Shown here: positions 10,829 to 27,109 of the stretch, piece after piece
How positions within the stretch are numbered: the stretch's first letter is position 1
Layout of the letters: the number at the start of each line of letters is the position of its first letter
From: Halorubrum cibi
Lineage (GTDB): Archaea > Halobacteriota > Halobacteria > Halobacteriales > Haloferacaceae
Assembly (NCBI RefSeq): GCF_900182635.1
Contig: NZ_FXTD01000002.1
Location: 186,001 to 250,000, forward strand
Direction of reading: 5' to 3'
Length of the DNA: 64,000 nt
Notes under the pieces: model-generated
Databases searched by the model: none
The model's input: the letters and a program-made list of their open reading frames with translations, nothing else
Told to the model about the DNA's origin: nothing
Made by a program: the position numbers and the translations under genes

Positions 10829-11125
10829 TCAGTCGTCGGCGGACTCCGGGTCGTGGATCGGGAGGTCGGCGACGTGGTCCGCGGCCTCGGAGAAGTTCGG
10901 CCCGGGTTCGATCTCGCCGGTCTCCGGGTCCCATTCGATGTATCCCGCCTCCTCGAGCGCGGGGAGATGGGTCTCACGGAGCGCGGCTTCGATCTCCTCC
11001 GCGCGGCCGCGCGGTCGGAGGTCCGTCACCGATTCGACCGCGTCGTCGGCGATCGCCGCGACGACCCGGCGGCGAGGCACGAACGCGAGCGGCGACGTGT
11101 CGGCGGCGGTAGTGTCGTGGGACAT
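10829..11125 (-). CDS. Small winged-helix protein (DUF7344-like)
   Basis: A 98-residue acidic protein with a winged-helix-like core: RRRVVAAIADDAVESVTDL followed by a recognition-helix-like region and HLPALEEAGYIEWDPETGEI as the beta-wing. This is the pattern of the small haloarchaeal HTH proteins of the DUF7344 kind, usually regulators near signalling or exported-protein genes. The target is unknown. The ATG at 11125 is followed by a Thr/Ala-rich stretch without homology. The upstream region (11126-11160) contains an ataaaac-like AT-rich patch that could be its promoter. Confidence 0.6.
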   Translation of the reverse strand: MSHDTTAADTSPLAFVPRRRVVAAIADDAVESVTDLRPRGRAEEIEAALRETHLPALEEAGYIEWDPETGEIEPGPNFSEAADHVADLPIHDPESADD

Positions 11126-21914: not shown

Positions 21915-22646
21915 TTAACCCGCGGAAGGGTCGGGAGCGCGCTTTTCGATCCCGTACTCGGGGATCCGAACCATCTGGATCCGTCCCGAGACGTGTCCTC
22001 CGTTCCGCACCTTCCCGCCCGGGGCGTGAACGGTAGTGTTCTGAATTCCCTGATTCGTTACCACTTCGACGTCGAGCGGGTAATACCGCTCCGGACCGTT
22101 GATCCGGGCGTTACCGTTTCCGTTGCCCTTGCCGACGAAGTCGACAGTGATCTGATCGGCGGGCGAGAGACACGTCACGGTGTGGGTCCGTTCCAGCGAG
22201 ACGCTCGTCCCGCCACCGCTCCCGTCCGCCTCGAAGGAGAGTTCGACGTCCGCTTCGGCGGAACAGGACAGGGTGACGGTCACCGGGCTCGCGTTACCCT
22301 CACCGAGTTCGTCGGGCGCGGTCGTCGATTCGATCGACGCGTCGACGTGCTCGGCGTTCGCGATCGAGACGTCGACGTCGAACCGATCGAGGGAGTCGCC
22401 GAACCGGTTTCGGTACTCGACCACCGCGGTCGGCTCTCCGCTGCCGGTCGCGTTCGCGATCGGCTCGTAGCCGAGGTACGCGTTCTCGTCGTCGGTCACG
22501 TTGACCGCGAGTCCGCGATCGGCCTCCATCGCGGAGAAGCCCGCGGTGCCGAACACCAGCCCGACCGCCGCCGTGAACGCGAGCAGGACGCTCAGGGTAC
22601 GCAGGGCGCTCGTGCGGGCCGGCGGCGTTCGGGTGATCACGTTCAT
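21915..22646 (-). CDS. Exported DUF1102-like protein
   Basis: A 243-residue secreted or anchored protein. The N-terminus has basic residues and then a hydrophobic segment ALRTLSVLLAFTAAVGLVFG. This is followed by TAGFSAMEADRGLAVNVTDD, the 'GAF-T/S-x-x-EADR' pattern of DUF1102 proteins also seen in the two genes at 23704 and 24457. The mature part is beta-rich and Ser/Thr/Asn-rich, with Cys about 130 and 162 that could form a disulphide. The C-terminus is polar and there is no second membrane span. The start at 22646 is directly downstream of the HTH gene on the same strand (16 bases), so the two probably form an operon. Confidence 0.65.
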   Translation of the reverse strand: MNVITRTPPARTSALRTLSVLLAFTAAVGLVFGTAGFSAMEADRGLAVNVTDDENAYLGYEPIANATGSGEPTAVVEYRNRFGDSLDRFDVDVSIANAEHVDASIESTTAPDELGEGNASPVTVTLSCSAEADVELSFEADGSGGGTSVSLERTHTVTCLSPADQITVDFVGKGNGNGNARINGPERYYPLDVEVVTNQGIQNTTVHAPGGKVRNGGHVSGRIQMVRIPEYGIEKRAPDPSAG

Positions 22647-22662
22647 TGGCGGTCCCGTGGAC

Positions 22663-23247
22663 TCATTCGCGCGTTCGGAGTTCCGGCGGCCTCTCCGTGT
22701 TGCCGAGGCGGGTGCGTCGGCCGACGACGTGGTGGACGATCGACGACACGCCGAAGACGGTCACCGTGAAGATCCCAACGTCGAGCGGGGCGAGCGCGGC
22801 GAACCCCGGCGTGTCGGTCGCGACCGCGAGAAGCAACGAGACGGCGACGCCAGCGAGTCCGACGTAGTAGAGACTCCAGGGGATCTCCCTGCTTCCCAAC
22901 ACCTCGACGTAGATGTCGAGGTTCTCCAGCGTCGGTGTGGCCCTGACGAGGTTCTCGTCGTCGACGGTGACGATGTCCTTCTCCTCCAGCTTCGGGAGGT
23001 GGGTGCGCTGGAGCGTGCTGTACACGTTCCGGCGGTCCTCGTACGTCACCTCCTCCGGCTCGACGCCGACCTCCCAGGCGGTGACGTGCGTGGAGAGTTC
23101 GGAGACGTCGAGCGGTTCCTCCGTGCGTTTGAGCGCGTGGATCACGAACCGTCGTCTGCGGTTCGAGAGCACGTCGAATATCTCGTCTTGAGACAGTTCA
23201 CCTCCGTTCGCGTTCGATCCGGCAGTCGTGTCGAGAGCTGATAGCAT
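22663..23247 (-). CDS. Membrane-anchored winged-helix protein (DUF7344 family)
   Basis: A 194-residue protein with an N-terminal winged-helix domain: ELSQDEIFDVLSNRRRRFV, the DVSELSTHVTAWEVG helix, YEDRRNVYSTLQRTHLPKLE as recognition region, and IVTVDDENLVRAT as wing. Two hydrophobic helices follow (about 125-145 and 150-172), so the DNA-binding domain is tethered to the membrane. Proteins of this design are thought to sense envelope state, which is inference. A strong Shine-Dalgarno sequence precedes the ATG. It is divergent from the secreted-protein genes at 23704 and cotranscribed with the exported protein at 21915. Confidence 0.8.
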   Translation of the reverse strand: MLSALDTTAGSNANGGELSQDEIFDVLSNRRRRFVIHALKRTEEPLDVSELSTHVTAWEVGVEPEEVTYEDRRNVYSTLQRTHLPKLEEKDIVTVDDENLVRATPTLENLDIYVEVLGSREIPWSLYYVGLAGVAVSLLLAVATDTPGFAALAPLDVGIFTVTVFGVSSIVHHVVGRRTRLGNTERPPELRTRE

Positions 23248-23255
23248 TGGTGTGG

Positions 23256-23265
23256 AAACCTCCTT
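23256..23265 (-). promoter_or_regulatory. Strong Shine-Dalgarno site of the HTH gene
   Basis: On the minus strand aaggaggttt precedes the ATG at 23247 with about 8-10 bases of spacer. This is one of the few good SD matches in the window, where many genes appear leaderless. It implies a leadered transcript. Confidence 0.7.
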
Positions 23266-23703
23266 CCTTTCCCGGCCGACGGTCCCCCGACCTCCGAACC
23301 GGTTGATTTCGCTTGTAGCGTGTGGGAGGTGATACCATAAAGTAGTTGGATAATTTATCTGTTAATTTATCAGATCTATCAATAGATGGAGTCTCTCGTC
23401 GCTCGAGAGAGGAGAGGTTGAACGGACGTATGGAATCCATACTGGTTCCCTCGCTGATCGTCGATCGTGTATAAACAGTCCCTAACGATCGGTATGGGGG
23501 TCCTACACGGCCCGCAGGACCCGCTCGATGAGACCACGAGGGGCGCTTGGGCCACAACGAGTCCGCCTCGAGGAACCGACGAGACAGCCTCGCGAACATG
23601 TCGAGGATCTCATAACGAAGTACCTCCCCCCGTATGTGACATCCAAGCACTCCCGGCCCGGCCGTCCGAGCGCGGGGGTGTGTGAACACAGGTGAGATAC
23701 GAC
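23266..23703. other. Divergent regulatory region of the exported-protein locus
   Basis: About 440 bases with no convincing gene. It holds AT-rich promoter-like DNA for the minus-strand HTH gene (around 23330-23385), a perfect 7+1+7 palindrome (23428-23442), a near-palindrome tctctcg-cgagaga around 23394-23412, a tataaa box at 23470-23475 on the plus strand, and an SD-like aggtga at 23690-23695. If the tataaa box drives the gene at 23704, its transcript has a leader of about 200 bases, unusual in this genome. Confidence 0.55.
23428..23442. promoter_or_regulatory. Perfect palindrome gtatgga-a-tccatac, candidate operator
   Basis: A 15-base perfect inverted repeat lies in the divergent region between the HTH gene and the secreted-protein genes, about 30-40 bases upstream of a tataaa box. 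Position and symmetry fit binding of a dimeric winged-helix regulator. The neighbouring HTH protein is the natural candidate, but this is inference. Confidence 0.45.
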
Positions 23704-24435
23704 ATGGAACGTCGCAAATTCGTGATCGGACTGGGTGCATTGGCTTCAGGAAGCGCGGCCGCGATGGGTACCGGGGCGTTCACCGCCGCGGAACTCGATG
23801 GCCGGAAAGCGAATATTGAGGTCGTGGATGACACGGACGGGCTGATCGGTCTCGAAGCAGGTACCAGCCAACTCGTCTCGAATGATGGAGGTGCCAACGG
23901 GAACGAACTCGTCATCGATTTCGACGTGGATGGGCCCGGAGACGGTGTCAATCCGAACTCGAAGTACCAAGTCGGCGGACTCGGGGGAATCGGAAATCTC
24001 GACGAAGTCCCCGGAAACCCGACGCTGGACACCACCGTCGAGGACGTCGCGATCGACACGGACAGCGATATTGAGGACTACTACGCCTTCAGACTGCTCA
24101 ACCAGTCCGGGTCGGACCAAGCGATCGAAGTGGAGTACGAGACCAACTCGGACTTCCCGTCGGAAGCTGAAGTGTACATGGTGTCTCAGTACGAGGAAGG
24201 GAGCGGTGACCCGGAGCAGACGAGTTCACTTATCGCGTCGGCGACGCCCGATGACCGGGAGGCGAGTATCATCTACTCCGATGACACTGATTACTCGACG
24301 GATGTCGATTCGGGGAAGGACGTCAAAATCAGCCTCCTCGTCGTCGTCGATGACGCGGAGACGGATGACGATCTGGGTGGTAATATTGTTGTTCGCGCGG
24401 GGAGTCACGACGATTTCACCACCGCTGATCAGTAA
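23704..24435 (+). CDS. Exported DUF1102-like protein with twin-arginine-type N-terminus
   Basis: A 243-residue acidic exported protein. The N-terminus MERRKFVIGLGALASGSA is a twin-arginine-type signal (RRKF). The conserved sequence GTGAFTAAELDGRKANIEVVD follows, then DDTDGLIGLEAG, shared with the next gene. The mature region is predicted beta-sandwich and Asp-rich. There is no C-terminal anchor. The start at 23704 was chosen over an in-frame Met four codons upstream because aggtga lies 8 bases before it. It resembles the broad TasA/camelysin-like haloarchaeal secreted proteins in layout, but fibre formation is not shown. It is followed after 21 bases by a paralogue. Confidence 0.7.
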   Translation: MERRKFVIGLGALASGSAAAMGTGAFTAAELDGRKANIEVVDDTDGLIGLEAGTSQLVSNDGGANGNELVIDFDVDGPGDGVNPNSKYQVGGLGGIGNLDEVPGNPTLDTTVEDVAIDTDSDIEDYYAFRLLNQSGSDQAIEVEYETNSDFPSEAEVYMVSQYEEGSGDPEQTSSLIASATPDDREASIIYSDDTDYSTDVDSGKDVKISLLVVVDDAETDDDLGGNIVVRAGSHDDFTTADQ

Positions 24436-24456
24436 CTCTACTACAGGGATTCAACC

Positions 24457-25107
24457 ATGAACCGACGTGATGTCGTAGTCGGGCTGGGAGCGCTGGCCGG
24501 TACGGGAGCGTTCGCTTCCGGAACCGGCGCGTTCAGCGCCGCGGAGGTCTCCCGGCAGGCGCAGATCGAAGTCGTCGACGACAGCGACGGGCTGGTCGGA
24601 TTGGTCGCGAACGAAGCGATTTCGGGCGTTCGGATGACCGAAGGCGGCGAACTGACGATCTCGATCGGTGACGACGATCCCGGCGTGAACGTCAGTTCTG
24701 TCTACCAGTTCGGGGCGTTCGTCAGTGACGACGACGTAGAGGATATCACGGGAGACACGTTCTCCGTGGTCACGGACGACGATCCTGCCGATATGAGTGA
24801 CGGCCAGGATTCCCTCGAATCCGCACTCGCCGTCGTGAACCAATCCGCGGAAGATCTCTCTGTCACGATCGACTTCGAACTGAACGACGATATCGACGGC
24901 AACACCGAATACGCCTTCGAGCTACAGTCTTCCCAAGGTGGAAACGGTACACGAGAGGGGATCGCGACGAGTCCGATAACCGGTCAGCTCGATACGAAAC
25001 TGGCTACCGGTGAGTCGATCGGACTGTCGTTCATCGTCAACGCGCTGGAAGGCACGACGGCGGACGAGATCTCGGGGAGCCTGAGTCTCTCGGCGACCGC
25101 CGTCTAA
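24457..25107 (+). CDS. Exported DUF1102-like protein, paralogue of the preceding gene
   Basis: A 216-residue exported protein starting MNRRDVVVGLGALAGTGAF. It again has a twin-arginine-type signal followed by GTGAFSAAEVSRQAQIEVVD and DDSDGLVGLVAN, clearly homologous to the 23704 product over the first 60 residues and diverged afterwards. The mature part is beta-rich (QFGAFVSDDDVEDITGD, LAVVNQSAEDLSVTIDFEL) and ends LSLSATAV with no anchor. The 21-base gap from the previous gene indicates one operon. A T-rich stretch directly after the stop suggests the operon ends here. Confidence 0.7.
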   Translation: MNRRDVVVGLGALAGTGAFASGTGAFSAAEVSRQAQIEVVDDSDGLVGLVANEAISGVRMTEGGELTISIGDDDPGVNVSSVYQFGAFVSDDDVEDITGDTFSVVTDDDPADMSDGQDSLESALAVVNQSAEDLSVTIDFELNDDIDGNTEYAFELQSSQGGNGTREGIATSPITGQLDTKLATGESIGLSFIVNALEGTTADEISGSLSLSATAV

Positions 25108-25113
25108 CAGACG

Positions 25114-25132
25114 CGTTTTATTTTAATCGTAT
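25114..25132 (+). terminator. T-rich terminator after the DUF1102-like pair
   Basis: The bases gcgttttattttaatcg lie 8-25 bases after the stop at 25107. Oligo-T tracts on the coding strand are the usual archaeal termination signal. This would separate the two small secreted-protein genes from the large gene at 25391. Confidence 0.6.
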
Positions 25133-25330
25133 CCCGTCTTCGAAGTTCACTCGTTCTCAGAGGCGTCAGTAGCCGTCAGATCCCCGCCCCGGAGACGGGT
25201 TGATGACTCCTCGACGAACACAACCACGCTACCGTCGGTCGTGCCGACGATCGTCGCCATGACTACGATACCGACGACACGCGATCTACGGATCTCGAGA
25301 CGACACTGGCTACGAAGCATCCCGAGCATT

Positions 25331-25349
25331 CCTCGATGCTCCATCGAGG
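25331..25349. repeat. Perfect inverted repeat upstream of the PGF-pre-PGF gene
   Basis: cctcgatg-ctc-catcgagg is an 8-base perfect stem with a 3-base loop, ending 41 bases before the ATG at 25391. It lies where a TATA box would normally sit, so it may be an operator or a leader hairpin. The rest of the 283-base gap (25108-25390) holds the terminator described separately and no gene I can support. Confidence 0.5.
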
Positions 25350-25390
25350 ACCGATTACTTTGGTACCCATGGCCCGTTCCCTTTCTCGCA

Positions 25391-27109
25391 ATGTCGCCCC
25401 GTGGATCGACGATGCTACTCGTCCTCATCGGAGCGACCGCACTCGTAACCTCCACCGGCGCGGTCGTCCTCGACGGCCCCACCGACCCCCTCAACGACGA
25501 CGTCGCCCTCCAGCCCGGCGACAACCCGTACACCTTCCTCGACGAGGACGGCGAACTCGTCGTCGACGTCACCGAGGACAACCCCCGTCTCGACACCGGG
25601 GGCGTCAACGTCGACGCAGTCAGCGTCGAGGACGACCTCTTCTACGTCGTCTACAACGGCAGCGAACCCGCCGAGGTCTGGATCGAACACGACTCGCAGG
25701 CGGTGACGTTCGTGATCGAGGGCCAGCCGGCCGAAAGCGACGGGGAACCGGCGCTCCTGACGTCCGAGGACGAGATCGTCCCGGTAGGTGTCAGGATCGA
25801 CACCCGCGTCGCCGACCTGATGCCGGGCGACCGTGTCCTCGACGAGGTCTCGGTTCACGCCCGTCCCGCCGAACCACAGGCGATGACGCAGGAGGGCGGC
25901 GGGAGTGGTGGAGACGGCGATGACGGAGACGACGATGACGCCTCGTCCGACCCCACGGTCTTCGTGGATTCACCGGCTCCGGACGCCCGCGAGGTCGAGG
26001 TGTACTCGGTCGCGGTGGGTTCGGAGACCGCGGTCGACCTGGAGGGACTCGAGATGGGCGACCCCGCGGTCCGGCTCGACCGGCTGTCGTTCGTCCGGAA
26101 CCGCCCGGACGACGTGGAGTTCTCGGTCGAGGGAAGCGAGGGGCATCCGGGGTCGGTCGCGCCCGTGGACCGCCCCGGGGTCGACCCGCTCGGCTACTAC
26201 GCGGTCTCCTTCGCGGAGCCCGATCAGCCGATCGAGACGGCGACCGCGGAGGTGATCGTGGACCGTGACCGCCTCCGGGAAGACGGCGTCGAGCCCGAGC
26301 GACTCGCCGCCTATCACGAGACCGACGAGGGCGGAGACGAGGGCGACGACTGGGAACTGACCGCGACGAGAGTGATCGCCGAGACCGACGAGGCGGTCCG
26401 GCTCGCGGTCGAATCGGACGGCTTCTCCGCGTTCGCGATCGGTGCCCGGCGCCCCGCGCTCGAGGCCGTCGACGCGACTGTATCCGCCGAAACGGTCGCG
26501 CCCGGGGATGCGATCACCCTCGAGGTGACCCTCTCGAACGTCGGTCCGGTCCCCGCGAGCGACGAGCAGGTTGCGGTCCGGGCGGTCGACGACGACGGAA
26601 CTGCGGTCGACGCGCTCGCGGATGGCCCCCTCTCCGTGGACGTCGCGCCGGGCGGGGCGCTCACCCGGAACGTGACCCTGCGCCTCGACGAACCGGGCGC
26701 GTACGATCTCGTCCTCGACGACGATCGGCTGGACACCCCCGCGACGGTCGCCTCGCTCGCGGTGCGGGAGTCCGAGCCGAACTCGGAGGAGTCGAGTCCC
26801 GGCTCGACCGAGACCGCATCCGACGGCGGGACGGGTCCGGTCGACGGGGCAGACGCGGACTCCGGGACTGAGTCGGGATCCGACGGCACCGCTCCGGAAC
26901 CGGAACCGACTCGCGGGACGGGGTCCGTCGGAGATGAGTCGGTGTCGGACGGCGGCGGGAGCGCCGACGGCACCGATCCCTCGGTCGAACCGGGACGGGC
27001 GGAGCGGACGGAACCGGCCGCGTTCGACCCCGCGGACTTCGCCGGACTCGCGGTACTCGTCGCCATCGTGCTCGCCACGCTGTTCCTCGTTCGGCGCGCC
27101 CCGCGGTGA
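25391..27109 (+). CDS. Large secreted protein with PGF-pre-PGF and CARDB-like domains and a C-terminal anchor
   Basis: A 572-residue surface protein. The signal-like N-terminus TMLLVLIGATALVTSTGAVV is followed by a DUF1102-like region (about 30-170). A low-complexity Gly/Asp stretch (about 175-195) leads to a PGF-pre-PGF domain (about 195-355, with LGYYAVSF and the ending SDGFSAFAIGARRP). Next is a CARDB-type beta-sandwich (about 360-450, VTLSNVGPVPASDEQVAV). A long Ser/Gly/Asp/Glu linker (about 455-540) precedes one membrane helix LAVLVAIVLATLFLV and RRAPR. This layout fits an archaeosortase/PGF-type surface protein, but a clear PGF motif is absent. The start at 25391 was preferred because upstream codons lack haloarchaeal composition. 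Confidence 0.75.
   Translation: MSPRGSTMLLVLIGATALVTSTGAVVLDGPTDPLNDDVALQPGDNPYTFLDEDGELVVDVTEDNPRLDTGGVNVDAVSVEDDLFYVVYNGSEPAEVWIEHDSQAVTFVIEGQPAESDGEPALLTSEDEIVPVGVRIDTRVADLMPGDRVLDEVSVHARPAEPQAMTQEGGGSGGDGDDGDDDDASSDPTVFVDSPAPDAREVEVYSVAVGSETAVDLEGLEMGDPAVRLDRLSFVRNRPDDVEFSVEGSEGHPGSVAPVDRPGVDPLGYYAVSFAEPDQPIETATAEVIVDRDRLREDGVEPERLAAYHETDEGGDEGDDWELTATRVIAETDEAVRLAVESDGFSAFAIGARRPALEAVDATVSAETVAPGDAITLEVTLSNVGPVPASDEQVAVRAVDDDGTAVDALADGPLSVDVAPGGALTRNVTLRLDEPGAYDLVLDDDRLDTPATVASLAVRESEPNSEESSPGSTETASDGGTGPVDGADADSGTESGSDGTAPEPEPTRGTGSVGDESVSDGGGSADGTDPSVEPGRAERTEPAAFDPADFAGLAVLVAIVLATLFLVRRAPR

Follow-up and report, generated by a model that had tools for sequence, protein, structure and literature searches.

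The present analysis concerns a locus of five genes from the archaeon Halorubrum cibi that is related to the clusters encoding haloarchaeal fimbriae exported by twin-arginine translocation (Tat fimbriae, tafi). The window, i.e., the whole stretch of 64,000 nucleotides that was analyzed, lies on a contig (C2) from a haloarchaeal genome of 3.2 Mb. All five open reading frames (ORFs) of positions 21915-27109 were confirmed (Table 1). Two pilin-like proteins (T1 and T2) and a large protein are encoded on one strand, divergently from a candidate regulator and a fourth exported protein. The coordinates given in the original prediction, which was made from the sequence alone, were right, with the sole exception of the start of the large protein. 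Because the orthologs start there, this start was moved to the ATG at 25391, which is almost certainly the one used, rather than the GTG at 25241. Close orthologous loci are present in Halorubrum rubrum and Halorubrum sp. 48-1-W, among others. Our analysis also revealed, upstream of the first pilin gene, a conserved control region (CGAG array, TCATAAC element and hairpin) that had been overlooked.

Table 1. Genes and control elements of the locus (positions in the window).
Position	Strand	Feature	Characteristics
21915..22646	-	TafC-like exported protein, 243 aa	Sec-type signal ending GTAGF; two predicted immunoglobulin (Ig)-like domains
22663..23247	-	DUF7344 winged-helix type protein, 194 aa	Transmembrane helices at the C-terminus; candidate regulator, encoded at the place of a tafB
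23537..23605	+	Four CGAG boxes (23537, 23558, 23580, 23602)	21-22 bp apart; candidate operator array
23610..23616	+	TCATAAC element	
23647..23681	+	Conserved covarying hairpin	Precedes first pilin; candidate 5′ leader
23690..23695	+	Invariant AGGTGA	Shine-Dalgarno-like
23704..24435	+	Pilin T1, TafA/TafE-like	Tat-type RR signal, GTGAF motif
24457..25107	+	Pilin T2, TafE-like	Tat-type RR signal, GTGAF motif
25391..27109	+	TafF-like large protein	N-terminal signal, then a DUF1102-type domain; PGF-pre-PGF and CARDB regions, both weak; transmembrane anchor at the C-terminus

T1 and T2 are homologous (39% identity over 166 aa, blastp E 2e-23) and both carry the patterns noticed initially, GTGAF[ST]AAE and DD-[TS]-DGL-[IV]-GL. 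They match the NCBIfam TafE family below its threshold (E 2.6e-9 for T1 and 1.9e-8 for T2; 37 and 34 bits compared to a cut-off of 155), and their sole significant sequence relative of known structure is PDB 9p0a, annotated as “Pilin” (E 6e-5 to T1). A search of a plasmid collection gave no match for T2. In profile-profile comparisons, the 53 N-terminal residues of the pilins matched canonical TafE (96.9%), and this region also matched the TafC-like protein (hhalign, 95.5%); a weaker match related the pilins to the large protein (64.9%, E 6e-5). The latter has no NCBIfam TafF match but is related to canonical TafF by its N-terminal domain (hhalign, 98.7%, E 2.7e-16). Therefore, an N-terminal region around a GTGAF-like motif is common to all four exported proteins, and the 243-aa protein is, as predicted, an exported relative of the pilins. 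In their mature parts, by contrast, the pilins are strongly divergent.

The putative signals of these proteins fall into two types. In all 123 pilins that were scored, T1 and T2 included, the signal has two arginines (RR) ahead of its hydrophobic stretch, compared to eight of 31 TafC-like proteins and none of 11 TafF-like proteins; the TafC-like protein of the window and its satellite orthologs (see below) are devoid of RR. Furthermore, signal hydrophobicity is weak in the pilins of the window and strong in its TafC-like and large proteins. This pattern fits a predicted export of the pilins by Tat and of their TafC-like and TafF-like partners by the general secretory (Sec) pathway. The AlphaFold2 model of T1 is a beta-sandwich with a predicted local distance difference test (pLDDT) score of 74, mostly 70-94 in the mature domain and <50 at the N-terminus. 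In the PDB, it comes closest to the bundling pili of Pyrobaculum calidifontis (7ueg; E 1.2e-3, probability 0.99, template modeling (TM) score 0.35-0.44), the next match being the Pyrodictium cannula protein CanA. At these modest scores, the fold predicted for the pilin is closest to that of archaeal bundling pili. The question of a common fold, whose absence from the mature domains was to refute the initial proposal, is only partly answered: T1 and T2 are homologous and the N-terminal region is shared, but the model of the mature TafC-like protein had different best structural matches.

The TafC-like protein matches NCBIfam TafC (E 1.1e-19) with 70.9 bits compared to an equivalog cut-off of 410. 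Its AlphaFold2 model (pLDDT 82), in which the two Ig-like domains are predicted, mostly resembles chaperone-usher chaperones, and only loosely (TM about 0.3). We did not assign it to the chaperone-usher chaperones because many satellite orthologs carry the first domain only; it has no PDB match by sequence, and an usher partner was not searched for. Judging from the model, a chaperone-like role is possible. The alignment of the TafC-like family also displays two near-invariant cysteines (128 and 159). The 194-aa protein belongs to Pfam DUF7344 (PF24035; 86 bits, cut-off 27.8), the only Pfam family above its cut-off in the locus, and ends in hydrophobic helices, as expected from the membrane-anchored winged-helix protein that had been predicted. 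Its gene occupies the place of a tafB, a name that we infer here. Elsewhere in the window, a 98-aa ORF (10829-11125) matches the profile of DUF7344 regulators (E 2e-11); it may be spurious, since this profile also caught antisense ORFs.

A complete taf cluster (L041) is present elsewhere in the genome, on contig C11. Its TafC-like, DUF7344, pilin and TafF-like genes have the same order and orientation as those of the window, and the cluster continues with genes encoding a polytopic membrane protein, a signal peptidase (above the cut-off for archaeal signal peptidase I and also SipW-like) and a DUF5305 protein. The blastp identities between both loci are 40% for the regulators (E 1e-51), 30% for the large proteins (E 1e-45), 31% for the TafC-like proteins (E 9e-16) and 44% over 84 aa for the pilins (E 4e-18). 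Canonical clusters from other genera (L105 and L106), whose TafA, TafC, TafE and TafF exceed the NCBIfam cut-offs, are organized as DUF5305, F-E divergent from A-DUF7344-C, and peptidase. The polytopic membrane protein (L041:13625-14653), whose gene adjoins that of the signal peptidase in complete taf clusters, shows weak rhombosortase-like similarity (E 0.007) and could be a further processing factor.

The paralogues of C11 also clarify the labels initially given to the proteins of the window. The signal and the C-terminal anchor of the large protein were borne out. Its scores lie below the cut-offs for DUF1102 (PF06510; 14.3 of 22.2 bits, the other proteins of the locus giving no match), CARDB (PF07705; 13.9 of 22.7 bits) and PGF-pre-PGF (TIGR04213; 19.4 of 28 bits). 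Since the C11 paralogues exceed the DUF1102 and CARDB cut-offs, these two labels are right by kinship; for PGF-pre-PGF, the C11 paralogue also falls short of the cut-off (21.4 of 28 bits).

The locus of the window lacks the genes encoding the signal peptidase, the DUF5305 protein and the polytopic membrane protein, each of which is found once elsewhere in the genome, on C11. It is therefore not self-contained, contrary to what had been proposed; a SipW-type peptidase had not been seen initially either, and no gene for one is adjacent. Such loci are hereafter called satellites. Among 55 regulator genes examined, 40 have no peptidase gene within 8 kb. Pilin genes are divergent from 37 of these 40 regulator genes, which attests the conservation of the neighborhood, a TafC-like gene lies directly behind 25 of them and a TafF-like gene is near 13. 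One of the 40 (L127) nevertheless belongs to a complete locus, its peptidase gene being located just past the 8-kb limit. These counts come from stringent single-protein searches, iterated profiles having merged the pilin and large-protein families and caught antisense ORFs for the regulator. In the regulator tree, satellite and complete-locus regulators are separated, L127 excepted (row L109 is a poor fragment). A peptidase of the C11 type is encoded elsewhere in 12 of 12 tested satellite genomes, with one close relative each (61-95% identity in the other eleven). The simplest reading would be that the satellite locus shares the C11 peptidase. In two loci (L160 and L163, in G142 and G233), satellites are arranged in tandem; these loci contain two or three DUF7344 regulators and as many as ten pilin-like genes, of which some encode proteins of 350-520 aa, and are possibly expanded fimbrial arrays. 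Another haloarchaeal taf pilin (L181) is found on a contig of a metagenome-assembled genome labelled as a Spirochaetaceae bacterium, which was probably mis-binned.

The divergent intergenic region is 456 bp long in the window and 434-496 bp long in 25 related satellite loci. The chain of four CGAG boxes was found in none of 20,000 dinucleotide shuffles of this region; when any 4-mer and any spacing were allowed, a chain of four occurred in three of 300 shuffles. In 24 loci, which are related to each other and therefore do not give independent counts, the boxes are located at -8 (24 loci), -30 (19), -51/-52 (20) and -72/-73 (14) relative to TCATAAC. The TCATAAC element is invariant at all 26 satellite loci, where it precedes the pilin start by 87-95 bp; in nine complete loci, it lies 103-114 bp ahead of this start, and it is also found at the C11 locus. 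Complete loci carry TTCAG-type repeats about 32 bp apart in place of the CGAG boxes. The divergent DUF7344 protein could bind these arrays.

The hairpin includes 12 pairs, five of them with changes on both sides, and 96.7% of the cells in its columns are paired, compared to 22-61% when the columns are slid. Over all 54 loci, the mean folding z-score is -1.65, compared to -0.55 in control stretches, and no Rfam family matches the control region. A conserved leader peptide was rejected because indels that are not multiples of three shift the frames between loci. The hairpin may be part of the pilin mRNA. Its location in the intergenic region of the regulator, next to the likely operator array, would also suit a DNA element that is bound by the regulator and lies outside the mRNA. 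This alternative is rather unlikely, given that a U-G pair is kept in 22 of 23 cases and that another pair is G-U in 11 and A-U in nine, which fits RNA pairing and not a DNA palindrome, and that complete loci have a hairpin of the same shape but of different sequence. A covariance model of the TCATAAC-hairpin part, built from some of the loci that it later found, detected 33 sites in 28 of the 52 genomes of the genus, all of them at satellite taf loci: 32 are next to a satellite regulator, and the remaining one is located in G038, before a pilin gene duplicated within the same operon. As the recovery of the loci of the model was expected, the informative part of this search is the lack of sites elsewhere. 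In G038, the element and a copy of the pilin gene were duplicated jointly within a single operon (L045:9100-9205; G038:C5:156099-156204), and it thus seems that both move as a unit.

Taken together, these results indicate that the locus is probably a satellite copy of the haloarchaeal tafi cluster, encoding two Tat-signal pilins and their Sec-signal partners, which would share the C11 peptidase and form a donor-strand fibre under the control of DUF7344. Its family and anatomy are well supported. The evidence consists of: (i) homology (NCBIfam Taf matches, TafE and TafF profile matches, 9p0a and the 7ueg fold), (ii) gene order (synteny with C11 and 37 of 40 neighborhoods) together with the regulator tree, (iii) Tat-type motifs, (iv) a peptidase that is absent from the locus, present once in the genome and retrieved in 12 of 12 satellite genomes, and (v) the conservation and specificity of the control region. 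From these, we infer the export route, the cleavage site, filament formation, peptidase sharing and the identity of the box binder, as follows. T1 and T2 would be exported via Tat thanks to their RR signals, and the TafC-like and TafF-like proteins via their Sec-type signals. The SipW-like C11 peptidase would cut the exported proteins at the GTGAF-type motif, and the N-terminal strand, once freed, would link subunits by donor-strand complementation, as in TasA. The TafF-like protein would base the fibre on the membrane, the TafC-like protein being an accessory, tip or adhesin component. The DUF7344 membrane protein would control this subunit set via the CGAG array and the TCATAAC element, which would allow the cell to choose between fibre types, and the hairpin would serve to protect or tune the mRNA of the pilins. 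The initial proposal of a surface-structure locus with an envelope-linked regulator thus holds in outline (membrane-tethered regulator, fold nearest to 7ueg, conserved neighborhood), but not its self-containment, and the family was imprecise.

Several points weigh against this interpretation. No protein of the window reaches the Taf equivalog cut-offs, the structural scores cited above are modest, and the predicted donor strand falls in the low-confidence N-terminus of the T1 model. General signal peptidases exist, and a peptidase might be encoded near taf genes by chance. Furthermore, some satellites have a single pilin gene and no TafF-like gene. This, the lack of peptidase and DUF5305 genes in the locus of the window, and the constant presence of the complete-cluster peptidase in satellite genomes would also be expected if satellites encoded subunits of an accessory or alternative kind (minor pilins, tip, adhesin) that become part of the C11 fibre without forming a fibre of their own. 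We consider this doubtful, as the window carries a TafF-like anchor and two pilins of its own, as well as a regulator that is private to it and whose control region is unlike that of complete loci. It is quite improbable that the products are non-polymerizing proteins of the surface or matrix, exported by Tat and folded as a TasA-like sandwich. The strong divergence of the mature pilin parts and the weak structural matches would suit this reading, but the segment following the cleavage motif is conserved, as a donor strand would be, and the pilins are related to named fimbrial families and to 9p0a.

It could be, although we hold this only tentatively and as somewhat less than an even chance, that haloarchaea keep modular and exchangeable satellite taf cassettes, all served by one shared signal peptidase. 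Each cassette would have a DUF7344 regulator of its own, bound to the membrane, whose targets would be a tandem operator array and a structured 5′ leader. Such cassettes would provide a switch between fibre types that is linked to the envelope and involves an archaeal mRNA leader element not described so far, and would explain several fibre types in one species. Tat-dependent fimbriae are a recent and unusual class of filaments, and DUF7344 is a widespread membrane winged-helix domain of unknown function for which the cassettes give a testable target. The conserved control region tied to this regulator is, in our opinion, the most interesting part: its CGAG array, TCATAAC element and hairpin offer concrete candidates for a binding site and a leader, which are amenable to assays in haloarchaeal genetics strains.

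Among known systems, fibres of TasA assemble through N-terminal donor strands (PMC9674648). The pilins of the window may resemble TasA and 7ueg in their predicted beta-sandwich and in the N-terminal segment that would follow signal cleavage. However, they share 7% sequence identity with 7ueg, at modest structural scores, and have Tat signals, whereas those systems have Sec signals. Unlike SipW-dependent TasA/camelysin systems, the locus has no adjacent SipW peptidase gene, and its exact relatives are the Taf families rather than camelysin, which had been suggested initially. A separate cluster, apart from the taf loci, encodes a SipW-type signal peptidase and several TasA/camelysin-type precursors with a motif like TTAYFSDEE (L042:3-9175, contig C10 of G000). 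A literature search of limited scope found no relevant paper on tafi/Taf, DUF7344, DUF1102 or DUF5305; the Taf names used here are those of NCBIfam. Compared to tafi (TafA NF052520, TafC NF052521, TafE NF052522 and TafF NF052523), the window likewise has Tat-signal pilins with TafC-like and TafF-like partners, a DUF7344 gene between pilin and TafC, a TafE-TafF pair and the same divergent layout. It differs by scores below every equivalog cut-off (its proteins being kin, not equivalogs), by the lack of peptidase and DUF5305 genes, by two pilin genes adjoining the TafF-like gene, by the Sec-type signal of its TafC-like protein and by other control boxes. The C11 cluster has one pilin gene instead of two, and additionally encodes the membrane protein, signal peptidase and DUF5305 protein; complete loci related to it carry the TTCAG-type repeats and the window the CGAG boxes. 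Overall, each part of the locus has a homologue in the C11 cluster, where the order is conserved, and both loci have TCATAAC and a candidate leader hairpin.

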